Of a DNA stretch of 64,000 bases, positions 4,022 to 64,000 are shown in pieces (position 1 is the stretch's first letter; each line of letters begins with the position of its first letter). The notes beneath the pieces were generated by a model, which made no database searches, was not told where the DNA came from, and saw only the letters and a program-made list of their open reading frames with translations. Made by a program: the position numbers and the translations under genes. Source of the DNA: Aromatoleum anaerobium (GTDB lineage Bacteria > Pseudomonadota > Gammaproteobacteria > Burkholderiales > Rhodocyclaceae); the NCBI RefSeq assembly GCF_012910705.2, contig NZ_WTVG02000035.1:186001-250000 (forward strand). Reading direction: 5' to 3'.

Positions 4022-4785
4022 CCGCGTTCATCGGTGTGCCGCGGCGCCCGCAAGCGCTTCGATGGGCGCCTCGATTCGGGCCTGCTTGCGGCCTGATGGC
4101 TATCGCCGCAGTGGCGCTCCCCCTTGCCGCGCATGCCGGGCCCGGACGCGCCCCGCTCGTCGCCGTCGACGTCGGCCACACGCTCGCCGCGCCGGGTGCG
4201 ATCAGCGCACGCGGCCGCGCCGAGTTCGACTTCAACCGCGACCTCGCGCTGCAAGTGGTCGCGGCGCTCGCCCGGCTGAACGTCCGGACCGAACTCGTGA
4301 ACCCGGACGGCGCGATCGAATCGCTCGCGGCGCGGCCGGCGCAGGTGCCGGCCGCAGACTTCTTGCTGTCGATCCATCATGATTCGGTCGGCGAGCGGGA
4401 GCTCGAGCACTGGCAGCCGGATGGCGAGACGCACAGCTACAGCGACCGCTGGGCGGGGCATTCGCTGTTCGTGTCGCGGCGCAATCCGGATCCGGGGCAC
4501 AGCGTGCTGTGCGCGGTGGCGATCGGGGCGCGGCTGCAGCGGGCGGGTTTCGTGCCGACGCAGAAGAACGGCCGCCAGCGGGAATACGCCGACCGGCCCC
4601 ATGCCGTGCATTTCTACGACAACCTGGTCGTGCTGTACCGCGCGCGGCAGCCGGCGCTGCTGTTCGAAGCCGGAGTCATCAAGCACCGCGATGAGGAGCT
4701 GCTGCTGCGCGACCCGCGGCGCCAGGCGCTGATGGCCGGCGAAATCGCGACCGGTATCGCGGCATGCCTCGCCGCGGGGCGCTGA
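4018..4785 (+). CDS. N-acetylmuramoyl-L-alanine amidase-like protein (Amidase_3)
   Basis: A 255-residue protein with a hydrophobic export-like segment near residues 27-40 (MAIAAVALPLAAHAG). The Amidase_3 zinc-hydrolase pattern follows: His in VDVGHTL, Glu in RAEFDFN, His in LLSIHHDS and the late acidic residue in LLFEAGV. Such enzymes cleave the amide between muramic acid and the stem peptide of peptidoglycan in the periplasm. The GTG start overlaps the preceding stop by 4 bp, so translation may be coupled to the cyclic-di-GMP protein. A start at ATG 4096 is possible and would leave a shorter signal peptide. Confidence 0.8.
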   Translation: MTAFIGVPRRPQALRWAPRFGPACGLMAIAAVALPLAAHAGPGRAPLVAVDVGHTLAAPGAISARGRAEFDFNRDLALQVVAALARLNVRTELVNPDGAIESLAARPAQVPAADFLLSIHHDSVGERELEHWQPDGETHSYSDRWAGHSLFVSRRNPDPGHSVLCAVAIGARLQRAGFVPTQKNGRQREYADRPHAVHFYDNLVVLYRARQPALLFEAGVIKHRDEELLLRDPRRQALMAGEIATGIAACLAAGR

Positions 4786-4798
4786 CGGCAGTCGCGGT

Positions 4799-4822
4799 GC
4801 GGCGCGCTTTCCGGCGCGCCGC
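4799..4822. terminator. GC-rich hairpin between convergent genes
   Basis: Arms 4799-4807 and 4814-4822 pair perfectly (9 bp, GCGGCGCGC) around a six-base loop. It sits between the amidase gene and prfC, which converge. There is only a short T-run on the plus side, so this is a plausible but weak shared terminator. Confidence 0.4.
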
Positions 4823-4827
4823 GGCTT

Positions 4828-6453
4828 TCAGCTCAGCTTCTCGCCGTGTTCCCGCGTCGCGTGGAAGCCGACTTTCGGCCACTTTTCCATCGTCACTTCG
4901 AGGTTGTAGCGGCTCGTCGCCAGATACACCGGATTGCCGTCGACATCCTTGCCGACGCGCATGCCCTGTTCGCGCTCGAAGTTGCGGCGCGTGACTTCGT
5001 CCGGGAAGGTCAGCCAGCGCGCGGTGTGGATGTCGGCGGACTCGAAGACCGCGTCGACCTTGTATTCGTCCTTGAGGCGCTGCGCGACGACTTCGAACTG
5101 CAGCTGGCCGACCGCGCCGAGCAGCATGTTGCCGCCTTCCTGCTCGAACACCTGAATCGCCCCTTCCTCGCCGAGCTCCTGCAGGCCTTTCTGCAATTGC
5201 TTGGACTTCAGCGGGTCGCGCAGGCGCGTGGCACTGAAGAGTTCCGGCGAGAAATACGGGATGCCCTTGTAGCCGAGGTTTTCGCCTTCGGTCAATGTGT
5301 CGCCGATGTGCAGCTGGCCATGGTTGTGGATGCCGATGATGTCGCCGGCGACGCCGTCTTCCATCAGCACGCGCTCGTTGGCCATGAAGGTCAGCGCGTT
5401 GGCGAGCTTCATCTCGCGCCCCATGCGCACGTGCTTCACTTTCATGCCGGAGCTGTAGCGGCCCGAGCAGATGCGGAAGAACGCGATGCGGTCGCGGTGC
5501 TTCGGGTCCATGTTGGCCTGGATCTTGAACACGAAACCGGTGAAGGGTGCTTCGGCCGGCATCACGAGGCGGGTGTCCGCCGCATTGACGCCAGCCGCCG
5601 TGACGCCTGCCACTCGCGGCTGGGGCGGCGGCGCCCAGTCGAGCAGCGCCTGCAGGATCTCCTGCACGCCGAAGTTGTTGATGCCGGAGCCGAAGAACAC
5701 CGGCGTCTGCTTGCCGGCGAGGAAGTCGCCGAGCGAGAACGGGTGCGAGGCGCCCTGAATCAGCTCGACTTCCTCGCGCAGCTTGCCGACTTCGAGCGGG
5801 AACAGCTCGTCGAGCTGCGCGTTCGCGATGCCCTTGATGACTTCGGCCTCGCTGCGCTTTTCCTCGCCGGGAGCGAAGCGCAGCACGCGGTCTTCGAGCA
5901 GGTGATAGACGCCGCGGAATGTCTTGCCCATGCCGATCGGCCACGTGATCGGCGCACAATCGATCTTCAGCACCTCCTCGATCTCCTGCAGCAGATCGAA
6001 GCTCTCGCGCACTTCGCGGTCCATCTTGTTGACGAAAGTGATGATCGGCGTGTTGCGCAGCCGGCACACTTCGAGCAGCTTGATCGTCTGCGCCTCGACG
6101 CCTTTCGCCGCGTCGATGACCATCACCGCCGCGTCGACCGCGGTCAGCACGCGGTAGGTGTCTTCCGAGAAGTCCTGGTGGCCAGGCGTGTCGAGCAGGT
6201 TGATGGTGTGCCCGGCGTAATCGAACTGCATCACCGAGCTGCTCACCGAGATGCCGCGCTGCTTTTCGACTTCCATCCAGTCGGAGGTCGCGTGGCGCGC
6301 GCTCTTCCTCGCCTTGACGGTGCCGGCAAGCTGGATTGCGCCGCCGAACAGCAGCAGCTTCTCGGTCAGCGTGGTCTTGCCGGCGTCGGGGTGGGAGATG
6401 ATGCCGAACGTTCTTCTTCGCTTGACTTCATCTGCGATTGGACCATTCGACAT
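4828..6453 (-). CDS. prfC: Peptide chain release factor 3
   Basis: A 541-residue translational GTPase that recycles release factors RF1/RF2 from the ribosome. G1 ([12 protein letters not shown]), G2 ([11 protein letters not shown]), G3 ([14 protein letters not shown]) and G4 (NKMDR) are all present, and the length is normal for the family. The start at 6453 ([18 protein letters not shown]) was preferred over ATG 6471 because an AAGGG sequence lies about 8 bases before it. The gene is divergent from the fic gene. Confidence 0.96.
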
Positions 6454-54228: not shown

Positions 54229-54244
54229 TGGCACACCCCTTGCA
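54229..54244 (+). promoter_or_regulatory. Sigma-54 promoter of the pps-ppc operon
   Basis: TGGCACACCCCTTGCA is a perfect match to TGGCAC-N5-TTGCW. It lies 79 bases before the ppsA ATG. With the two activator sites upstream and the divergent regulator gene it forms a complete sigma-54 control region. Confidence 0.92.
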
Positions 54245-54322: not shown

Positions 54323-56161
54323 ATGAAGTTTCCTGTTCCGCACGACATCAAGGCCAAGACGATTCCGGGGACCGAAGGCTGGGAGCGGATGTATCCGTAC
54401 CAGTACCAGTTCGTCACCGACGACCCGCAGCGCAACCAGTACGAGAAGGACACTTTCTGGTTCTACGACGGGCTGCATTATCCGGAACCGCTGTACCCGT
54501 TCGACACGATCTGGGACGAAGCCTGGTACCTCGCGCTGTCGCAGTTCAACAACCGCATCTTCCAGGTGCCGCCGGTGCGCGGCGTCGATCACCGCATCAT
54601 CAACGGCTACGTCTATATCTCGCCGGTGCCGGTCAAGGACCCCGCCGAAATCGGCGCGCGGGTGCCGAATTTCATGGAGCGCGCGGGTTTCTACTACAAG
54701 AACTGGGACGCGCTCGAAGCGAAGTGGAAAGTGAAGATGGAGGCGGCGATCGCCGAGCTCGAGGCGCTCGAGATCCCGCGCCTGCCCGACGTCGAGGACC
54801 TCAGCGTCGTCACCGACGGCATCGGCGAGTCGAAGGGCTACCACCTGCTGAAGAACTACGACGACCTGATCAACCTCGGCATCAAGTGCTGGCAGTACCA
54901 CTTCGAGTTCCTGAACCTCGGCTACGCGGCCTACGTGTTCTTCATGGACTTCACGCAGAAGCTGTTCCCGAGCATTCCGTTGCAGCGGATCACGCAGATG
55001 GTTTCCGGCATCGACGTGATCATGTACCGGCCTGACGACGAGCTGAAGGAACTGGCGAAGAAGGCGGTCGCGCTCGAAGTTGACGACATCGTCGCCGGCC
55101 ATCGCGAATGGGACGACGTCAAGGCCGCGCTCGGCGCGCACCGGCACGGCGACGAGTGGCTCGCGGCGTTCGAGAAGGCGCGCTACCCGTGGTTCAACAT
55201 CTCGTCGGGCACCGGCTGGTTCCACACCGACCGCAGCTGGAACGACAACCTCAACATCCCGCTCGACGGCATACAGACTTATATCGGCAAGCTCCGCGCG
55301 GGGGTCTCGATCGACCGGCCGATGGAAGCGGTGCGTGCCGAGCGCGACCGGATCACCGCCGAATACCGCGATCTGATCGACAGCGACGAGGATCGCAAGC
55401 AGTTCGACGAACTGCTCGGCTGCGCCAAGACGGTGTTCCCGTACGTCGAGAACCATCTCTTCTACGTCGAGCACTGGTTCCACTCGGTGTTCTGGAACAA
55501 GATGCGCGAAGTCGCCGCGATCATGAAGGAACACGGCATGATCGCCGACGTTGAAGACATCTGGTATCTGCGCCGCGACGAGATCAAGCAGGCGCTATGG
55601 GATGTCGTCACCGCGTGGGCGACCGGCGTCACGCCGCGCGGCACCACGACCTGGCCGGCCGAAATCGAATGGCGCAAGGGCGTGATGCAGAAGTTCCGTG
55701 AATGGAACCGGCCGCCGGCGATCGGCGTCGCGCCGGAGGTGATCCAGGAACCCTTCACGATCGTGCTGTGGGGCGTCACGAACAACTCCCTGTCCGACTG
55801 GGCCGCGGTGCAGGACATCGCCGACCCGGACAGCATCACCGAGCTGAAAGGCTTCGCCGCGAGCCCCGGCACTGTCGAAGGCCGTGCCCGCGTGTGCCGC
55901 AGCGCCGAGGACATCCGCGACCTGCAGGAAGGCGAGATCCTCGTCGCACCGACGACCTCGCCGTCGTGGGCGCCGGCATTCGCGAAGATCAAGGCCTGCG
56001 TCACCGACGTCGGCGGCGTCATGAGCCACGCCGCGATCGTGTGCCGCGAATACGGCATGCCGGCGGTCGTCGGCACGGGAGTGTCGACACGCGTGATCCG
56101 CACCGGCATGACGCTGCGGGTCGACGGCTCGTCCGGCGTGATCTCGATCATCACGGCCTGA
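54323..56161 (+). CDS. ppsA: Phenylphosphate synthase subunit A (70 kDa, phospho-His)
   Basis: A 612-residue protein resembling the swivelling phosphohistidine part of PEP synthase. The C-terminal motif GGVMSHAAIVCREYGMPAVV holds His 569, the same number as the histidine reported to be phosphorylated in the Thauera aromatica enzyme. The larger N-terminal part (about 1-510) has the phenol-binding role by inference. With PpsB it converts phenol and ATP to phenylphosphate, AMP and phosphate, the first step of anaerobic phenol degradation. AAAGGAGG precedes the ATG by about 12 bases. Confidence 0.95.
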   Translation: MKFPVPHDIKAKTIPGTEGWERMYPYQYQFVTDDPQRNQYEKDTFWFYDGLHYPEPLYPFDTIWDEAWYLALSQFNNRIFQVPPVRGVDHRIINGYVYISPVPVKDPAEIGARVPNFMERAGFYYKNWDALEAKWKVKMEAAIAELEALEIPRLPDVEDLSVVTDGIGESKGYHLLKNYDDLINLGIKCWQYHFEFLNLGYAAYVFFMDFTQKLFPSIPLQRITQMVSGIDVIMYRPDDELKELAKKAVALEVDDIVAGHREWDDVKAALGAHRHGDEWLAAFEKARYPWFNISSGTGWFHTDRSWNDNLNIPLDGIQTYIGKLRAGVSIDRPMEAVRAERDRITAEYRDLIDSDEDRKQFDELLGCAKTVFPYVENHLFYVEHWFHSVFWNKMREVAAIMKEHGMIADVEDIWYLRRDEIKQALWDVVTAWATGVTPRGTTTWPAEIEWRKGVMQKFREWNRPPAIGVAPEVIQEPFTIVLWGVTNNSLSDWAAVQDIADPDSITELKGFAASPGTVEGRARVCRSAEDIRDLQEGEILVAPTTSPSWAPAFAKIKACVTDVGGVMSHAAIVCREYGMPAVVGTGVSTRVIRTGMTLRVDGSSGVISIITA

Positions 56162-56174
56162 AGAGGTGACCCCG

Positions 56175-57299
56175 ATGGGAAGCGTTATTTCTGCAGCAGC
56201 CCTGCCCTGGGCCGCCCTCGACAGCGTCGCGCCGAAAGTGTGTTCTTTCGAGGAATGCGGCAAGGACTCGGTGCAGCTGGTCGGCGGCAAGTGCGCGTCG
56301 CTCGGCGAACTGATCAACGCGGGTGTGCGGGTGCCGCCGGGCTTCGCGCTCACCACCCGCGGCTATGCACAGTTCATGCGCGAGGCCGGCATCCAGGCCG
56401 AAGTCGCGGGGCTCCTCGACGGCCTCGACCACGAGGACATGGACAAGCTCGAGGAGGCCTCGCACGCGATCCGCGAAATGATCGAATCGCGCCCGCTGCC
56501 GATCGAGCTCGAGGACCTGATCGCCGAGGCCTACCGCAAACTGTCGGTGCGCTGCTACCTGCCGGCGGTGCCGGTCGCAGTGCGCTCCTCCGCGACCGCC
56601 GAGGACCTGCCGGGCGCGAGCTTCGCCGGCCAGCAGGACACCTACCTGTGGATCCGCGGCGTCGATGACGTGATCCATCACGTGCGGCGGTGCATCTCCA
56701 GCCTCTACAGCGGGCGGGCGATCGCCTACCGCATGAAGATGGGATTCCCGCACGAACAGGTCGCGATCAGCGTCGGCATCCAGAAGATGGCGAACGCCTA
56801 CACCGCGGGCGTGATGTTCACCGTGCATCCGGCGACCGGCGACCGCTCGGTGATCGTCATCGACGCGAACTTCGGCTTCGGTGAATCGGTGGTGTCGGGC
56901 GAAGTCACGCCGGACAACTTCGTCGTCAACAAGATCACGCTCGACATCATCGAGCGGACGATTTCGACGAAGGAGATCTGCCACACCGTCGATCTGAAAA
57001 CTCAGAAGTCGATCGCGCTTCCGGTCCCTACCGAGCGCCAGAACATCCAGTCGATCACCGATGACGAGATCGGCGAACTCGCGTCGATGGCGAAGAAGAT
57101 CGAAAAGCACTATGGCCGCCCGATGGACATCGAATGGGCGATCGACAAGCACCTGCCAGCCGGCGGGAACATTTTCATCCTGCAGGCGCGCCCCGAAACG
57201 ATCTGGAGCAATCGCCAGAAAACCACCGGTGCGGCAAGCAGCACGTCGGCGATGGATTACATCGTGTCGAGTCTGCTCGCCGGAAAACGACTCAGCTAG
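56175..57299 (+). CDS. ppsB: Phenylphosphate synthase subunit B (40 kDa, ATP-binding)
   Basis: A 374-residue protein matching the ATP-grasp (nucleotide-binding) part of PEP synthase/pyruvate phosphate dikinase (LVGGKCASLGELINAGVRVP, AVRSSATAEDLPGASFAGQQ, GNIFILQARPETIWS). It transfers the beta-phosphate of ATP to His 569 of PpsA. PEP synthase has both parts in one chain; here they are split into two genes. AGGTG spaced for ATG 56175 favours that start over GTG 56166. Confidence 0.95.
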   Translation: MGSVISAAALPWAALDSVAPKVCSFEECGKDSVQLVGGKCASLGELINAGVRVPPGFALTTRGYAQFMREAGIQAEVAGLLDGLDHEDMDKLEEASHAIREMIESRPLPIELEDLIAEAYRKLSVRCYLPAVPVAVRSSATAEDLPGASFAGQQDTYLWIRGVDDVIHHVRRCISSLYSGRAIAYRMKMGFPHEQVAISVGIQKMANAYTAGVMFTVHPATGDRSVIVIDANFGFGESVVSGEVTPDNFVVNKITLDIIERTISTKEICHTVDLKTQKSIALPVPTERQNIQSITDDEIGELASMAKKIEKHYGRPMDIEWAIDKHLPAGGNIFILQARPETIWSNRQKTTGAASSTSAMDYIVSSLLAGKRLS

Positions 57300-57312
57300 G
57301 AGGACGACCAAA

Positions 57313-57981
57313 GTGATCGTACGTAACTGGATGCAGCCGAATCCGACCGTGTTGACCGGCGACACGCTGCTGTCCGAGGCGAAGCGGATCCTGTCGGAAG
57401 CCAATGTCCACGCGTTGCCGGTCGTCGATGACGGCCGCCTGCGTGGCCTCATCACGCGCGCCAGCTGCCTGCGCGCCGCGCACGCCGCGTTGCGCACCCA
57501 GGACACCGACGAGCTCAGCTATTTCTCGAATCACGTCAAGGTCAAGGACATCATGGTCCGCAACCCCGCGACGATCGACGCCGACGACACGATGGAGCAC
57601 TGCCTGCAGATCGGCCAGGAGCACGGCGTCGGCCAGTTGCCGGTGATGGACGGCGACAATGTCGTCGGCATGATCTCGGCGATCGAGATGTATTCGCTGG
57701 CGGCGCATTTCCTCGGCGCCTGGGAAAAGCGCAGCGGCGTGACGCTCGCGCCGATGGAACTCAAGCCGGGAACGATGGGGCGCATCGCCGACATCGTCGA
57801 GGCGGCGAACGCCGAACTGCTCGCGATCTATCCGATCAGCATTGGCCACCTGAACGCGTCCTCCGCGTCGCACGCCAAGAAAGTGATCGTCCGCTTTCAC
57901 GCCGCAGATACCGACACGGTGATCTGCGCACTCGGACGCGCAGGATTCGAAGTCATCGAATCCGTCCAGGCAATGCATTGA
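57313..57981 (+). CDS. ppsC: Phenylphosphate synthase subunit C (24 kDa, CBS pair)
   Basis: A 222-residue protein with two CBS motifs (NWMQPNPTVLTGDTLLSEAK, VHALPVVDDGRLRGLITRAS; DIMVRNPATIDADDTMEHC, VGQLPVMDGDNVVGMISAIE) and a C-terminal ACT-like tail. In Thauera the corresponding protein stimulates the synthase several-fold; CBS pairs usually sense adenine nucleotides. The start is GTG 57313, 14 bases after ppsB, preceded by AGGAGG. Confidence 0.93.
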   Translation: MIVRNWMQPNPTVLTGDTLLSEAKRILSEANVHALPVVDDGRLRGLITRASCLRAAHAALRTQDTDELSYFSNHVKVKDIMVRNPATIDADDTMEHCLQIGQEHGVGQLPVMDGDNVVGMISAIEMYSLAAHFLGAWEKRSGVTLAPMELKPGTMGRIADIVEAANAELLAIYPISIGHLNASSASHAKKVIVRFHAADTDTVICALGRAGFEVIESVQAMH

Positions 57982-58038: not shown

Positions 58039-59457
58039 ATGGACCTGAGATATTTCATCAACCAGTGCGCCGAAGCCCACGAGCTCAAGCGCGTCACGAC
58101 CGAAGTCGACTGGAATCTGGAGATCTCGCACGTCTCCAAGCTGACCGAGGAGAAGAAGGGCCCGGCGCTGCTGTTCGAGAGCGTCAAGGGCTATGACACT
58201 CCGGTCTTCACCGGCGCGTTCGCGACGACCAAGCGCCTCGCGATCATGCTCGGCCTGCCGCACGACCTGACGCTGTGCGAATCGGCGCAGCAGTGGATGA
58301 AGAAAACGATCACCTCCGAAGGCCTGATCAAGGCGAAGGAAGTCAAGGACGGGCCGGTGCTGGAAAACGTGCTCAGCGGCGACAAGGTCGATCTCAACAT
58401 GTTCCCGGTGCCGAAGTTCTTCCCGCTCGATGGCGGGCGCTACATCGGCACGATGGTGTCGGTGGTGCTGAAGGACCCCGAGACCGGCGAGGTGAACCTC
58501 GGCACGTATCGCATGCAGATGCTCGACGACAAGCGCTGCGGTGTGCAGATCCTGCCCGGCAAGCGCGGCGAGCGGATCATGAAGAAGTACGCGAAGATGG
58601 GCAAGAAGATGCCCGCGGCGGCGATCATCGGCTGCGACCCGCTGATCTTCATGGCCGGCACGCTGATGCACAAGGGTGCGAGCGACTTCGACATCACCGG
58701 CACGGTGCGCGGCCAGCAGGCCGAGTTCCTGATGGCGCCGCTGACCGGGCTGCCGGTGCCGGCCGGCGCCGAGATCGTCCTCGAAGGCGAGATCGACCCG
58801 AACGCCTTCCTGCCGGAAGGGCCGTTCGCCGAATACACCGGCTACTACACCGACGAACTGCACAAGCCGATCCCGAAGCCGGTGCTCGAAGTCAAACAGA
58901 TCCTGCACCGCAACAACCCGATCCTGTGGGCGACCGGCCAGGGCCGGCCGGTGACCGACGTGCATATGCTGCTCGCCTTCACGCGCACCGCGACCTTGTG
59001 GACGGAGCTCGAGCAGATGCGCGTGCCGGGCATCAGCTCGGTGTGCGTGCTGCCGGAGTCCGCCGGCCGCTTCTGGGCCGTCGTGTCGGTCAAGCAGTCC
59101 TACCCCGGCCACTCACGCCAGGTCGCCGACGCAGTGATCGGCAGCAACACCGGCAGCTACGGCATCAAAGGCGTCATCACGGTCGATGAGGACATCCAGG
59201 CCGATGACCTGCAGCGCGTGTTCTGGGCGCTGTCGTGCCGTTACGACCCGATGCGCGGCACCGAACTCATCAAGCGCGGCCGCTCGACGCCGCTCGACCC
59301 GGCGCTCGACCCGGACGGCGACAAGCTCACGACGTCGCGCATCCTGATGGACGCGTGCATCCCGTACGAGTGGAAACAGAAGCCGGTCGAGGCGCGCATG
59401 GACGAGGAAATGCTCGCCAAGATCCGCGCCCGCTGGCACGAGTACGGCATCGACTGA
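58039..59457 (+). CDS. ppcB: Phenylphosphate carboxylase subunit beta (UbiD family)
   Basis: A 472-residue UbiD-family protein (about 53 kDa). The family glutamates are in LPEGPFAEYTGYYTD, the region that holds the catalytic Glu pair of UbiD/Fdc1. With PpcA, PpcC and PpcD it carboxylates phenylphosphate with CO2 to 4-hydroxybenzoate and phosphate. It has the T. aromatica gene position after ppsC. CAAGGAG precedes the ATG. Confidence 0.93.
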   Translation: MDLRYFINQCAEAHELKRVTTEVDWNLEISHVSKLTEEKKGPALLFESVKGYDTPVFTGAFATTKRLAIMLGLPHDLTLCESAQQWMKKTITSEGLIKAKEVKDGPVLENVLSGDKVDLNMFPVPKFFPLDGGRYIGTMVSVVLKDPETGEVNLGTYRMQMLDDKRCGVQILPGKRGERIMKKYAKMGKKMPAAAIIGCDPLIFMAGTLMHKGASDFDITGTVRGQQAEFLMAPLTGLPVPAGAEIVLEGEIDPNAFLPEGPFAEYTGYYTDELHKPIPKPVLEVKQILHRNNPILWATGQGRPVTDVHMLLAFTRTATLWTELEQMRVPGISSVCVLPESAGRFWAVVSVKQSYPGHSRQVADAVIGSNTGSYGIKGVITVDEDIQADDLQRVFWALSCRYDPMRGTELIKRGRSTPLDPALDPDGDKLTTSRILMDACIPYEWKQKPVEARMDEEMLAKIRARWHEYGID

Positions 59458-59521: not shown

Positions 59522-60031
59522 ATGGAACAGGCAAAGAACATCAAGCTGGTGATCCTCGACGTCGACGGCGTGATGACCGACGGCCGTATCGTCATCAATG
59601 ACGACGGCATCGAATCGCGCAACTTCGACATCAAGGACGGCATGGGCGTGATCGTGCTGCAGCTGTGCGGCATCGACGTGGCGATCATCACGTCGAAGAA
59701 GTCCGGCGCGGTGCGCCATCGTGCCGAGGAGCTGAAGATCAAGCGCTTCTACGAAGGGATCAAGAAGAAGACCGAACCGTATGCGCAGATGCTCGAGGAG
59801 ATGAACATTTCCGACGCCGAAGTCTGCTACGTCGGCGACGACCTCGTCGATCTGTCGATGATGAAGCGCGTCGGGCTCGCGGTCGCGGTCGGCGACGCGG
59901 TCGCCGACGTCAAGGAAGCCGCGACCTACGTGACGACGGCGCGCGGCGGCCACGGTGCGGTGCGCGAAGTCGCCGAGCTGATCCTCAAGGCGCAGGGCAA
60001 GTGGGACGCGGTGCTCGCGAAGATCCACTGA
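59522..60031 (+). CDS. ppcD: Phenylphosphate carboxylase subunit delta (HAD phosphatase-like)
   Basis: A 169-residue (18 kDa) protein of the HAD superfamily, KdsC-like. It has nucleophile motif LVILDVDGVMTDGR, motif II serine in IITSKKSGAV, Lys in RFYEGIKKKTEPY and acidic motif YVGDDLVDLSMM. In Thauera the delta subunit is needed for carboxylation starting from phenylphosphate, removing the phosphate, but not for the CO2 exchange reaction. Confidence 0.93.
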   Translation: MEQAKNIKLVILDVDGVMTDGRIVINDDGIESRNFDIKDGMGVIVLQLCGIDVAIITSKKSGAVRHRAEELKIKRFYEGIKKKTEPYAQMLEEMNISDAEVCYVGDDLVDLSMMKRVGLAVAVGDAVADVKEAATYVTTARGGHGAVREVAELILKAQGKWDAVLAKIH

Positions 60032-60081: not shown

Positions 60082-61542
60082 GTGGCAAAGATTTCGGCAC
60101 CGAAGAACAACCGCGAATTCATCGACGCGTGCGTCGCGTCCGGCGATGCGGTACGCATCAAGCAGGAAGTGGACTGGGACAACGAGGCCGGCGCGATCGT
60201 GCGCCGCGTGTGCGAGCTCGGCGAAGCCGCACCCTTCATGGAGAACATCAAGGACTACCCGGGCTTCAGCTATTTCGGCGCGCCGCTGTCGACCTATCGG
60301 CGCATGGCGATCGCGCTCGGCATGGACCCGGCCTCGACCTTGCCGCAGATCGGCGCGGAGTACCTCAAGCGCACCAACAGCGAGCCGATCGCACCGGTCA
60401 TCGTCGACCGCCGCGATGCGCCGTGCAAGGAGAACATCCTGCTCGGCGACGACGTCGACCTGTGCAAGCTGCCGGTGCCGCTGGTGCATGACGGCGACGG
60501 CGGGCGCTACGTCGGCACCTGGCACGGCGTCATCACCAAGCATCCGGTACGGGGCGACGTGAACTGGGGCATGTACCGCCAGATGATGTGGGACGGCCGC
60601 ACGATGTCGGGCGCGGTGTTCCCCTTCTCCGACCTCGGCAAGACGCTGACGGATTATTACCTGCCGCGCGGCGAAGGCTGCCCCTTCGCGACCGCGATCG
60701 GCCTGTCGCCGCTGGCCGCGATGGCCGCGTGCGCGCCGAGCCCGATCCCCGAGCCGGAGCTGACCGGCATGCTCGCCGGCGAGGCGGTGCGGCTCGTGAA
60801 GTGCGAGACGAACGACCTCGAAGTGCCGGCCGACGCCGAGATCATCATCGAGGGCATGATCCTGCCCGACTACAAGGTCGAGGAAGGCCCGTTCGGCGAA
60901 TACACCGGCTACCGCACCAGCCCGCGCGACTTCCGCGTGACCTTCCGCGTCGATGCGATCACCTATCGCAACAACGCGACGATGACGATCTCGAACATGG
61001 GCGTGCCGCAGGATGAAGGGCAGCTGCTGCGCTCGTTCTCGCTCGGACTGGAGCTGGAGAAGCTGCTGAAGAGCCAGGGCATCCCGGTGACCGGCGTCTA
61101 CATGCACCCGCGCTCGACGCACCACATGATGATCGTCGGCGTGAAGCCGACCTACGCCGGCATCGCGATGCAGATCGCGCAGCTCGCGTTCGGCTCCAAG
61201 CTCGGGCCGTGGTTCCACATGGTGATGGTGGTCGACGACCAGACCGACATCTTCAACTGGGACGAGGTCTATCACGCGTTCTGCACGCGCTGCAATCCGG
61301 AGCGCGGCATCCACGTCTTCAAGAACACGACCGGCACCGCGCTCTACCCGCACGCGACCCCGCACGAGCGCAAGTACTCGATCGGCTCGAAGGTGCTGTT
61401 CGACTGCCTGTGGCCGGTCGACTGGGACAAGACCAACGACGTGCCCACGGTCGTCAGCTTCAAGAATGTCTATCCCAAGGACATCCAGGAGAAGGTCGTC
61501 AACAACTGGGCCGATTACGGCTTCCGCGGCGCGAAGAAATAA
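60082..61542 (+). CDS. ppcA: Phenylphosphate carboxylase subunit alpha (UbiD family)
   Basis: A 486-residue UbiD-family protein (about 54 kDa), paralogous to PpcB. The glutamate motif is VEEGPFGEYTGYRTS and a flavin-region motif is DVNWGMYRQMMWDGRTM. It starts at GTG 60082 after AAGGAGATCGAC. With PpcB and PpcC it forms the core that exchanges CO2 with 4-hydroxybenzoate. Confidence 0.93.
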   Translation: MAKISAPKNNREFIDACVASGDAVRIKQEVDWDNEAGAIVRRVCELGEAAPFMENIKDYPGFSYFGAPLSTYRRMAIALGMDPASTLPQIGAEYLKRTNSEPIAPVIVDRRDAPCKENILLGDDVDLCKLPVPLVHDGDGGRYVGTWHGVITKHPVRGDVNWGMYRQMMWDGRTMSGAVFPFSDLGKTLTDYYLPRGEGCPFATAIGLSPLAAMAACAPSPIPEPELTGMLAGEAVRLVKCETNDLEVPADAEIIIEGMILPDYKVEEGPFGEYTGYRTSPRDFRVTFRVDAITYRNNATMTISNMGVPQDEGQLLRSFSLGLELEKLLKSQGIPVTGVYMHPRSTHHMMIVGVKPTYAGIAMQIAQLAFGSKLGPWFHMVMVVDDQTDIFNWDEVYHAFCTRCNPERGIHVFKNTTGTALYPHATPHERKYSIGSKVLFDCLWPVDWDKTNDVPTVVSFKNVYPKDIQEKVVNNWADYGFRGAKK

Positions 61543-61551
61543 GGAGCGGTC

Positions 61552-61809
61552 ATGGCAAACAAGTGGGAAGTGTTCGTGATGGACCTCGGGGAACTCGCCG
61601 AGGGCAAGGAGCTGGAACTGACGATCCGCACGCTCAACGACGGGCTGCACAAGTACACCTACCAGCGCGCGAAGGTGGAGGTATCGAGCAAGCTCGACCA
61701 GTTCGCCGACAGCCTGCAGGTGCGGCTCGGGCGCGGGCAGTTGAGTGACCGGAAGTTCTCGATCCGCGTGATCGAGCGCGTCGAGCGCTTGCCGGCGCAG
61801 TACCGGTAA
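61552..61809 (+). CDS. ppcC: Phenylphosphate carboxylase subunit gamma
   Basis: An 85-residue protein (about 10 kDa) rich in charged residues (DLGELAEGKELELTIRTLND, RAKVEVSSKLDQFADSLQVR), with no other recognisable family. Size and position match the small gamma subunit of T. aromatica. AAGGAG lies before ATG 61552, 10 bp after ppcA. Confidence 0.9.
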   Translation: MANKWEVFVMDLGELAEGKELELTIRTLNDGLHKYTYQRAKVEVSSKLDQFADSLQVRLGRGQLSDRKFSIRVIERVERLPAQYR

Positions 61810-61880: not shown

Positions 61881-63227
61881 ATGGCCTACCCCGACCTGCG
61901 CAGCTTCCTGGCCGACCTCGGCGACGACCTGCTGCACGTGCGCGACGAGTTCGACCCGCAGTTCGAGATTGCGGCGGTGCTGCGCAGCCTGCCCGCCGAC
62001 GCGCCCGCGGCGCTCTTCGAGAACGTGCGCGGCTACCCCGGCGCGCGCGTCGCCGGCAACCTGTTCGGCGCCCGCCGCCGCGTCGCGCGCGCTTTCGGCA
62101 CGACGGAAGACCGGCTCGCGCAGGCCTGGCTCGCGAACAAGCAGCGCGCGATCGCGCCGGTCGTCGCGAAGAGCGCGCCGGTGCAGGAGGTCGTGCACGA
62201 ATCCCCCGACGATCTGCTGTCGCTGCTGCCGGTACTGACTCATCACGAGAAGGACGGCGGCCCCTTCATCACGACCGGCGTCGTGCTGTGCACCGACCCG
62301 GCGACCGGCCGTCGCGGCATGGGCATCCATCGCCTGATGGTCAAGGGCGGCCGCCGGCTCGGCGTGCTGCTCGCGAACCCGCCGCTGTCGCAGTTCCACG
62401 CCAACGCCGAAAGCCTCGGCCGGCCGCTCGACGTCGCGATCGCGCTCGGGCTGGAGCCCGCGACGCTGCTCGCGTCGGTCGTGCGCAGCGGCCCGCAGGG
62501 GCCGGACAAGATGGCCGTCGCCGGCGGCCTGCGCGGCGAGCCGGTCGAGCTGGTGCGCGCGCGCAGCGTGGAGGTCGAAGTCCCGGCGCGCGCCGAGATC
62601 GTCATCGAAGGCCGCATCCTGCCGGGCGTGCGTGAGAGCGAAGGCCCGTTCGGCGAGAACACCGGCTACTACTTCACGAACGTCAGCCCGGTGATCGAAA
62701 TCAGCGCGGTCACGCACCGCGACAACTTCATCTATCCGGGGCTGTGCCCGTGGTCGGGCGATGTCGATACGCTGCTGTCGCTCGCGGCCGGTACCGAACT
62801 GCTCGGCCAGTTGCAGACGATGGTCGCGGGCGTCGTCGATCTCGACCTCACATCGGGCACCGCCGGCTTCTCGGCCGCGATCGCGGTGAAGGGCTGCCCG
62901 CGGCACGAGGCGCGCCGCCTCGTGATGCTCGCGCTGAACCTGGACAAGCGTCTCAAGACCGTCACCGTCGTCGATGACGACGTCGACATCCGCAACCCGC
63001 GCGAAGTCGCCTGGGCGATGGCGACGCGCTACCTGCCCGAACGCGACACCGTGATCCTCGGCGGCGCCGAAGGCTACGTCATCGACCCTTCATCGGCGGG
63101 CAGCAGCGCGGGCTCGAAAGCGGGCTTCATCGCGACGCGCGGCGCCGGCCCCGAATTCGACCGCATCACGCTTCCCGCCGCCGCACTCGCGAAGGCGCAG
63201 GCCCTGCTCGCCACGCTGCACAAATAA
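61881..63227 (+). CDS. UbiD-like decarboxylase paralogue
   Basis: A 448-residue UbiD-family protein. The glutamate motif SEGPFGENTGYYFTN and NPRGMGIHRLMVKGGRR-type flavin/Mn region are intact, so it should be catalytically able. It is the third UbiD homologue in the operon and is not among the four known carboxylase subunits. It may decarboxylate a hydroxybenzoate, or serve maturation or a related phenol; I cannot decide. It starts 71 bp after ppcC. Confidence 0.85.
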   Translation: MAYPDLRSFLADLGDDLLHVRDEFDPQFEIAAVLRSLPADAPAALFENVRGYPGARVAGNLFGARRRVARAFGTTEDRLAQAWLANKQRAIAPVVAKSAPVQEVVHESPDDLLSLLPVLTHHEKDGGPFITTGVVLCTDPATGRRGMGIHRLMVKGGRRLGVLLANPPLSQFHANAESLGRPLDVAIALGLEPATLLASVVRSGPQGPDKMAVAGGLRGEPVELVRARSVEVEVPARAEIVIEGRILPGVRESEGPFGENTGYYFTNVSPVIEISAVTHRDNFIYPGLCPWSGDVDTLLSLAAGTELLGQLQTMVAGVVDLDLTSGTAGFSAAIAVKGCPRHEARRLVMLALNLDKRLKTVTVVDDDVDIRNPREVAWAMATRYLPERDTVILGGAEGYVIDPSSAGSSAGSKAGFIATRGAGPEFDRITLPAAALAKAQALLATLHK

Positions 63228-63240
63228 CGGAGACAGCACC

Positions 63241-63843
63241 ATGAGAATCGTCGTCGGCATTTCCGGAGCAAGCGGTGCGATCTACGGAATCCGCATCCTC
63301 GAAGTGCTCAAGCGCATCGGCGTCGAAACCGACCTCGTGATGTCGGATTCGGCGAAGCGCACGATCGCCTACGAGACCGATTACTCGATCAACGACGTCA
63401 AGTGCCTCGCCTCTTGCGTCCATGACATCAACGACGTCGGCGCCTCGATCGCGAGCGGCTCGTTCCGCCACGCCGGCATGATCATCGCGCCGTGCTCGAT
63501 CAAGACGCTGTCCGCGGTCGCAAACTCGTTCAACACGAACCTGCTGATCCGCGCCGCCGACGTCACGCTGAAGGAACGCCGCAAGCTCGTGCTGATGCTT
63601 CGCGAGACGCCGCTGCACCTCGGCCACCTGCGCCTGATGACGCAGGTCACCGAGACCGGCGCGGTGCTCGTGCCGCCGCTGCCGGCGTTCTACCACCGGC
63701 CGAAGACGCTCGACGACATCATCAACCAGTCGGTGACGAAAGTGCTCGACCAGTTCGACCTCGACATAGACCTGTTCGGTCGCTGGACGGGCGACGAGGA
63801 ACGCGAGTTCGCGAAGTCGCGCCAGGGGCAGCCGGCATGCTGA
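63241..63843 (+). CDS. UbiX-like flavin prenyltransferase
   Basis: A 200-residue UbiX/Pad1-type protein (VVGISGASGAIYGIRILEVL, IIAPCSIKTLSAVANSFNTN, RRKLVLMLRETPLHLGHLRL). UbiX joins a dimethylallyl group to FMN to make prenyl-FMN, the cofactor of UbiD enzymes. Its presence beside three UbiD homologues points to a dedicated cofactor supply. It starts 13 bp after the UbiD-like gene. Confidence 0.92.
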   Translation: MRIVVGISGASGAIYGIRILEVLKRIGVETDLVMSDSAKRTIAYETDYSINDVKCLASCVHDINDVGASIASGSFRHAGMIIAPCSIKTLSAVANSFNTNLLIRAADVTLKERRKLVLMLRETPLHLGHLRLMTQVTETGAVLVPPLPAFYHRPKTLDDIINQSVTKVLDQFDLDIDLFGRWTGDEEREFAKSRQGQPAC

Positions 63844-64000
63844 CCACCGCCACCAGCCTCGAACTCGAAGGCGAAGTCGCGCCGGGGCTCGGCGAAGGCT
63901 CGCGCTTCACGGCGATCGACTGGGTGATCGTGGAGTTTCGCAAGAAGCTCGGCTTCATCCCGTGGCCCGGCACCTTCAACCTGCGCATGCACGGCATGCG
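63837..64000 (+). CDS. CTP-dependent riboflavin kinase-like (DUF120) protein, cut by window end
   Basis: The first 54 codons read LEGEVAPGLGEGSRFTAIDW, then EFRKKLGFIPWPGTFNLRMH. This resembles the start of archaeal-type CTP-dependent riboflavin kinases (G.V..GLGEG..., LGF.P.PGTLNL). Such kinases make FMN from riboflavin. ATG 63837 overlaps the UbiX-like stop by 7 bp, so the two are translationally linked. The rest lies beyond the window, so activity cannot be judged. Confidence 0.65.
   Translation, partial: MLTTATSLELEGEVAPGLGEGSRFTAIDWVIVEFRKKLGFIPWPGTFNLRMHGM

Follow-up and report, generated by a model that had tools for sequence, protein, structure and literature searches.

Why should a bacterial operon for anaerobic phenol breakdown carry an archaeal-type riboflavin kinase gene directly behind a flavin prenyltransferase gene, when the same genome has an ordinary flavokinase gene elsewhere? 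The question is raised by a locus at the end of the window analyzed here, a stretch of 64,000 nucleotides of the Aromatoleum anaerobium contig NZ_WTVG02000035.1 (positions 186,001 to 250,000). Thirteen co-directional genes, with intergenic gaps of -7 to 71 bp, follow one another in the order ppsA, ppsB, ppsC, ppcB, ppcD, ppcA, ppcC, a third ubiD, ubiX, the stand-alone riboflavin kinase (henceforth RFK), a Zn-ribbon Nudix gene, a PPOX-fold gene and a PaaK-like ligase gene, and the window ends inside this run. The features up to that end, with phenylphosphate carboxylase abbreviated as PPC, are:

54229..54244, + strand: sigma-54-type -24/-12 promoter-like site, TGGCAC-N5-TTGCA, 78 bp before ppsA (regular expression on the intergenic stretch)
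54323..57981, + strand: ppsA, ppsB and ppsC, phenylphosphate synthase, with starts at 54323, 56166 and 57331 (open reading frames, named by position and synteny with Azoarcus sp. KH32C)
58039..59457, + strand: ppcB, PPC beta, UbiD family (TIGR02724, 1117 bits, cut-off 469)
59522..60031, + strand: ppcD, PPC delta, HAD phosphatase family (TIGR02726, 374 bits, cut-off 282)
60082..61542, + strand: ppcA, PPC alpha, UbiD family (TIGR02723, 1156 bits, cut-off 565)
61552..61809, + strand: ppcC, PPC gamma (TIGR02725, 139 bits, cut-off 135.6; PF09662, E 2.5e-51)
61881..63227, + strand: third UbiD homologue (UbiD3), 448 aa (three UbiD Pfam domains, PF01977/20695/20696)
63241..63843, + strand: ubiX, flavin prenyltransferase, 200 aa (NF004685, 262 bits, cut-off 188; TIGR00421, 246 bits, cut-off 109)
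63837..64000, continuing to 64277 (L002:3838-4278), + strand: RFK, stand-alone archaeal-type riboflavin kinase (PF01982)

All four PPC subunits, alpha, beta, gamma and delta, score above their equivalog cut-offs (TIGR02723-02726), and in this the locus resembles the PPC operon of Thauera and Aromatoleum (ppsABC, ppcABCD), on which the original papers are said to be Breinig 2000 and Schuehle and Fuchs 2004. The gene order also matches that of plasmid pAZKH of Azoarcus sp. KH32C, an annotated relative in which the flanking UbiD, UbiX, DUF120 and Nudix genes are present too, with no difference in content, and in which the RFK counterpart is named only as a "DUF120 domain-containing protein". The names ppsABC derive from position and synteny, the KH32C counterparts being annotated as PEP-utilizing, PEP-binding and CBS proteins. 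The promoter-like site fits the sigma-54 consensus, and in KH32C the annotation places a sigma-54-dependent regulator upstream of the corresponding cluster. The first-pass annotation had placed UbiD-like, UbiX-like and DUF120-like genes after the four PPC subunits, and Pfam and NCBIfam matches bear out all three; the best PDB match of the UbiX protein is PAD1 (6qlg, E 3e-60). The proposed overlap of ubiX and RFK is exactly 7 bp, with the RFK start codon at 63837 and the ubiX stop ending at 63843. The gene set drawn in that annotation was right in letting RFK follow ubiX but too short, as the run goes on through the Nudix, PPOX-fold and ligase genes. On balance, we lean towards regarding the locus as a phenol-to-4-hydroxybenzoate operon (ppsABC, ppcBDAC) equipped with a flavin-cofactor supply of its own.

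Reading past position 64000 on the same contig, a step the first-pass annotation had called for, yielded a complete RFK protein of 146 aa (63837-64277 in window numbering). It matches PF01982 (DUF120) with E 5e-30 and 104.4 bits (cut-off 25), over profile positions 1-120 of 121, and MJ0056 in the PDB with E 3e-14. With the archaeal CTP-dependent riboflavin kinase RibK (MJ0056; PF01982) it shares the full-length domain, the T, N, E and R positions and the GT-x-N motif; it falls below the equivalog cut-offs of the NCBIfam models for archaeal-type riboflavin kinase (RibK), with 64 vs 168 bits for NF040694 and 93 vs 279 for NF010762. When the PPC-linked RFKs are aligned to MJ0056 and chain 3cta, the residues G17, T46, N48, E109 and R117 prove invariant in all 28 distinct sequences. 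Of these, T46, N48, E109 and R117 correspond to T43, N45, E107 and R115 of MJ0056 and are common to MJ0056 and 3cta; we take T43 and N45 to be Mg2+ ligands, and E107 and R115 presumably line the FMN and CTP sites. The proposed check of the DUF120 active site accordingly came out well for these four positions but less so for the GxGEG loop, which we assume to be the CTP (nucleotide) loop of MJ0056: it reads GLGEG in the RFK of the window, and GDGVG (L095/L097), GDGVA (L100) or GLDKA (a second PPC cluster of genome G1021) elsewhere. Unlike MJ0056, the RFK of the window is bacterial, sits within a catabolic operon and is extra to an ordinary flavokinase gene, and the PPC-linked RFKs, some of them with the looser loop, have a C-x-A-x-C motif, which is found in all 28 bacterial proteins and is missing from the two archaeal ones.

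That RFK is not a chance open reading frame is indicated by the invariant residues common to 28 distinct PPC-linked orthologues. The six named relatives recovered with RFK, five of them Aromatoleum species and the sixth Azoarcus sp. Aa7, are 76-80% identical. Measured against four relatives, its dN/dS of 0.28-0.57 lies below 1 and denotes constraint, weaker than that on UbiX, UbiD3, Nudix and PpcA (0.07-0.22), and over 25 loci it diverges faster, with a mean pairwise distance of 0.47 vs 0.11 for PpcA and 0.18 for UbiX. The RFK tree has long branches, the PPC-linked proteins forming one clade in 52% of bootstrap trees, and horizontal transfer from archaea was therefore not adopted as an explanation of its origin. 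An AlphaFold model of an RFK orthologue (6 sequences) reached a mean pLDDT of 37. A single flavokinase-domain gene (PF01687) is found in the genome, on another contig, and RFK is therefore an addition to the usual route to FMN, not a substitute for it.

The phyletic pattern of RFK follows that of PPC. With genomes picked by PPC markers first and RFK looked for second, RFK was recovered in 28 of 28 distinct PPC-positive genomes (16 members of the genus, 11 further members of the family and G014 from the class sample), each time as a domain that is free of stops and covers 118 or more of the 121 profile positions. It lies within 2.7 kb of PPC in 27 of them; in G1033 the two are split over two contigs, with RFK beside the third ubiD gene on the contig other than that of PPC. 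A further genome with a full cluster, G449, was left out of the 28, having been found via RFK. At the level of the genus, PpcA scores above cut-off in 16 of 17 genomes, all 16 of which have RFK, 15 within 2.7 kb; in G1030, the sole member without PpcA above cut-off, we found no stand-alone RFK, its weak match being a partial domain inside a different, longer protein. In a sample of 199 genomes of the family, PPC gamma was detected in 17 and PF01982 in 21, the listed genomes indicating that both searches were run on one draw. All 17 are among the 21, such that PF01982 is matched in 17/17 PPC-positive (6 of them genus members already counted) vs 4/182 PPC-negative genomes; counted per genus, the figures are 7/7 PPC-positive vs 1/61 PPC-negative genera (Fisher 8e-9, with kinship between genera ignored). 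In the class sample PPC gamma occurs in two of 369 genomes (G000 and G014), both with RFK. The association of RFK with PPC is real and conserved. Searches of the openly licensed literature for phenylphosphate together with riboflavin kinase returned no report, and those for riboflavin kinase together with UbiX or UbiD returned, by their titles, nothing on the link; the association thus appears new in that we did not find it described there. These observations suggest that in anaerobic phenol degraders PPC has a dedicated source of flavin cofactor, through an RFK predicted to make FMN. Clusters for PPC also occur outside Pseudomonadota, for instance in Geobacter and Ferroglobus.

The first-pass remark that a CTP-dependent type of kinase is unusual in bacteria holds within Pseudomonadota, PF01982 exceeding its cut-off in 7/369 genomes of the class sample (the genome of the window included), 2/300 of the order and 2/398 of the phylum. 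The seven class-sample matches comprise the two PPC-linked proteins (G000, G014), four HAD fusions (G120, G150, G262, G357) and G180, a glycosyltransferase fusion, which we rejected as an RFK along with G216 (a match of 19 bits, judged by eye to be HicB-like), G423 (two matches of 22-23 bits) and G782 (a 184-aa protein with 29 bits). Likewise, the four RFK-positive, PPC-negative genomes of the family sample belong to one genus (g582) and all encode RFK-HAD fusions, so that stand-alone RFK in that sample is confined to PPC-positive genomes. These fusions, which in the PPC-negative genomes contain the archaeal-type kinase, are reminiscent of bifunctional proteins that join riboflavin kinase to a HAD phosphatase, of which we take plant AtFMN/FHy to be one, and differ from the RFK of the window, which stands alone. 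Among plasmid records six hold an RFK relative, and the sole bacterial one is that of KH32C, which bears a PPC cluster; a general link between RFK and UbiX is not supported, as 389 plasmid records with UbiX relatives stand against that single bacterial one with RFK (under differing E-value limits).

The gene neighborhoods differ in how firmly their parts are held. We mapped 30 loci, 28 of which have a PPC-type RFK (L094 and L098 are without) and at most 27 of these 28 represent distinct contigs. UbiX is encoded in all 28 RFK-bearing loci, UbiD3 in 27, Nudix in 25 and PPOX in 10. The ubiX gene overlaps or adjoins RFK in 26 of the 28, with an overlap of 7 bp in four loci, of 4 bp in three and gaps of up to 208 bp, spacings that rest on the chosen starts and leave out L090 and L092, to which no start codon was assigned. 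In L026 and L083 ubiX has shifted to the far end, with RFK still behind UbiD3. In the second PPC cluster of G1021, RFK adjoins ppcC, and the strand it is on bears no ubiX; such a gene is found 9.5 kb off on the opposite strand. UbiD3 is not supported as a needed part on account of L088, a cluster without it (looked for at the mapped locus only), and neither are Nudix and PPOX as fixed parts, the former being missing from three of the 28 loci (L028, L084, L088) and the latter being present in only the ten.

Besides the three UbiD homologues of the locus, the genome encodes one more on another contig, which together with Fdc1 and HmfF served as comparator in the UbiD alignment. We take N168, H191 and E233 of Fdc1 to be its metal ligands and E277, R173 and E282 its E-R-E triad. 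UbiD3 keeps the triad in all 26 distinct orthologues, and all of its metal-ligand positions are replaced in the same 26: N168 by G (25) or A (1), H191 by P (26) and E233 by K (26), with a conserved D next to the E233 position. With these replacements the extra UbiD of the first-pass annotation does not look like an ordinary member of its family, and it could be a relative that is non-catalytic or has been put to another use; its structure prediction (5 sequences) has a mean pLDDT of 38. The alignment of the H191 loop is uncertain, the other UbiD of the genome having a His two columns off, although no His is conserved in the UbiD3 loop. PpcA keeps the triad and the N and E ligand positions and has D in place of H in 25 of the 26 rows; the remaining row is a PpcA-like protein from L094, a locus in which no other PPC genes were found. 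PpcB keeps N in 24/24, has D for E in 23/24, and shows R at the H191 position with K one column before. By this comparison of ligand positions, the strongest candidate for a putative site of prenyl-FMN (prFMN) is PpcA.

From the directly observed gene content and order, the full-length RFK with its conserved site residues, its co-occurrence with PPC and the second flavokinase-domain gene, we infer the following chemistry. A CTP-dependent RFK would convert riboflavin to FMN outside the housekeeping RibF-type enzyme, UbiX would attach the prenyl group to reduced FMN, and the resulting prFMN would be taken up by UbiD-fold subunits of PPC, most likely by PpcA. Bifunctional RibF couples the formation of FMN to adenylylation to FAD, and a stand-alone kinase yields FMN without that step; high demand for PPC during growth on phenol would be the reason for tying the RFK gene to PPC. 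Riboflavin is very likely the substrate of RFK and prFMN quite likely the cofactor in PPC, CTP is the likely phosphate donor, and UbiX would be an equally likely destination of the FMN made. The reading as a whole, from RFK through UbiX to a PPC that uses prFMN, is the one we moderately favor. The line from riboflavin over FMN and prFMN to UbiD enzymes drawn in the first-pass annotation fits these data and is strengthened by the link of RFK with PPC across genera, except that the extra UbiD does not look like an ordinary one. In combining UbiX and UbiD with extra genes, the locus resembles LpdBCD and VdcBCD, UbiX-UbiD systems that include small accessory proteins; LpdD is described in PMC10865409 as a prFMNH2-binding chaperone. 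It differs in that the extra gene is predicted to encode an FMN-making enzyme. No LpdD- or VdcD-type family name occurs among the Pfam and NCBIfam matches of ten locus proteins, in libraries that may hold no such model.

A 2023 review (PMC10176493) cuts both ways on prFMN in PPC, as its substrate discussion groups PPC with prFMN-dependent enzymes and the entries for PPC in its table are K+ and Mg2+ or Mn2+ only. Against the favored reading we counted the variation of the GxGEG loop, the fast divergence of RFK, the G1021 RFK with no adjacent ubiX and the missed RibK cut-offs, and also the table entry, the low pLDDT of the RFK model, the changes at H191 in PpcA and PpcB, and a related enzyme reported to work with FMN. 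The last of these, the phenylphosphoamidate carboxylase of Desulfatiglans anilini (PMC7500099), speaks for an alternative in which PPC would use the FMN from RFK as such, as a cofactor or assembly factor, with UbiX serving another step or being non-limiting. The second G1021 cluster, which keeps RFK by ppcC, and the deviation of PpcA and PpcB at the H191 metal-ligand position point the same way. Nevertheless, we consider this unlikely, given that UbiX is encoded in every mapped RFK locus and beside RFK in 26, that PpcA keeps the E-R-E triad and that, in the same paper, the proteome shows a UbiX-like protein only under growth with phenol. Alternatively, RFK may add to the FMN/FAD pool at large to serve anaerobic aromatic catabolism, its location in the PPC operon being incidental. 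Two haloarchaeal plasmids have accessory RFK genes with ribB and near genes for LLM-class oxidoreductases, which indicates that other flavoenzymes, too, can be accompanied by genes for flavin supply. A gene for such general supply should, however, be present elsewhere as well, and the restriction of stand-alone RFK to PPC-positive genomes of the family sample makes such a role distinctly unlikely.

A change of substrate would turn RFK into a CTP-dependent kinase of dimethylallyl alcohol, making the UbiX co-substrate DMAP, or of another small alcohol of the pathway. We hold this to be improbable in view of the invariance of E109 and R117, the presumed FMN and CTP site residues, and we know of no member of the PF01982 family with another substrate. 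It would nevertheless accommodate the fast divergence, the variable loop and the C-x-A-x-C motif missing from the two archaeal proteins, and DMAP is given as the prenyl donor in UbiX reactions in PMC10865409. That RFK is a passenger with no function in phenol breakdown is hardly credible: its constraint is relaxed relative to its neighbors, but the domain has been kept free of stops in every PPC-positive genome and RFK remains where the order of its neighbors shifts, as in L026 and L083.

If the favored reading is correct, the stand-alone archaeal-type riboflavin kinase would, to our knowledge, receive its first function in bacteria, and co-expression of RFK and UbiX might be a way to load those UbiD-type carboxylases of which active preparations are difficult to obtain. 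It would also provide genetic evidence that the CO2-fixing PPC depends on a locally made flavin. A more elaborate version envisages a full private line to prFMN in which RFK with CTP bypasses the FAD-making RibF and Nudix, PPOX, UbiX and UbiD3 all take part; we regard it as doubtful. There, the Nudix protein would turn DMAPP into DMAP or recover FMN from FAD, the PPOX-fold protein would reduce or carry FMN, and UbiD3 would be a retired decarboxylase, now a carrier handing prFMN to PpcA/PpcB. A regular-expression search recovers the Nudix box in 24 of 25 Nudix proteins and the four-Cys ribbon in all 25; two loci of this set, L020 and L102, represent one contig. The best NCBIfam match of the Nudix protein is NAD(+) diphosphatase, with every NCBIfam match below cut-off, and DMAPP (to DMAP), FAD (to FMN) and nucleotides in a clean-up role are candidate substrates. 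An independent hint of a link between Nudix and UbiD/UbiX comes from a benzene-degrading consortium, for which PMC5852087 describes one transcript with UbiD, UbiX and a gene 58% identical to a NUDIX hydrolase.

The archaeal-type riboflavin kinase domain (RFK, PF01982) also occurs joined to a HAD phosphatase domain in eight proteins (8/8 confirmed by Pfam), in two domain orders: by Pfam, RFK-HAD is found in genus g582 and in the class-sample genome G120, and two genera within family f152 have the HAD-RFK arrangement. The fusion proteins are possibly bifunctional FMN kinase/phosphatases.

RFK/HAD fusions (Pfam) in the fetched loci
L103:9050-10093, fusion
L104:5832-6878, fusion
L105:9053-10177, minus strand, fusion
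L106:2968-4071, minus strand, fusion
L027:8910-9959, minus strand, fusion
L029:9677-10750, minus strand, fusion, order HAD-RFK
L030:8883-10133, fusion
L031:9725-10969, minus strand, fusion

In L029 (9677-12392, minus strand) a UbiD-family gene is followed 31 bp downstream by the HAD-RFK gene, and this locus is a second and independent RFK-UbiD neighbourhood.

A C-x-A-x-C motif, residues 78-82 of the stand-alone RFK (L002:3838-4278, a gene reaching past the window end), is invariant in RFKs linked to phenylphosphate carboxylase (PPC; 28/28) and recurs in the two g582 RFK-HAD proteins inspected, whereas the two archaeal RFKs compared lack it.

Genome G1021, with three RFKs, carries an additional PPC-like cluster (L096, G1021:C2:1768000-1787900) of ppcB, ppcA, ppcC, RFK and ligase genes, tblastn finding no ppcD in this stretch; facing it on the opposite strand is a separate UbiD3-UbiX-RFK-Nudix block. 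A further UbiD system is L094 (G1178:C20), whose PpcA-like protein (4244-5659, 39% identity) has histidine at the Fdc1 H191 position and a PaaK-like ligase nearby; the stretch fetched around this gene gave no RFK match.

Divergent DUF120-like domains are fused to a glycosyltransferase (L032:7045-8634, minus strand), lie within a 184-aa protein (L033:8261-8815) or, by eye, precede a methyltransferase-like stretch (L098 near 9500, minus strand); perhaps they form a kinase subfamily with a different substrate. Haloarchaeal plasmids carry ribB and CTP-dependent riboflavin kinase genes with LLM-class flavin enzymes nearby (L108:3010-4890, L109:2692-4075), flavoenzymes and flavin supply being packaged together in another domain of life.
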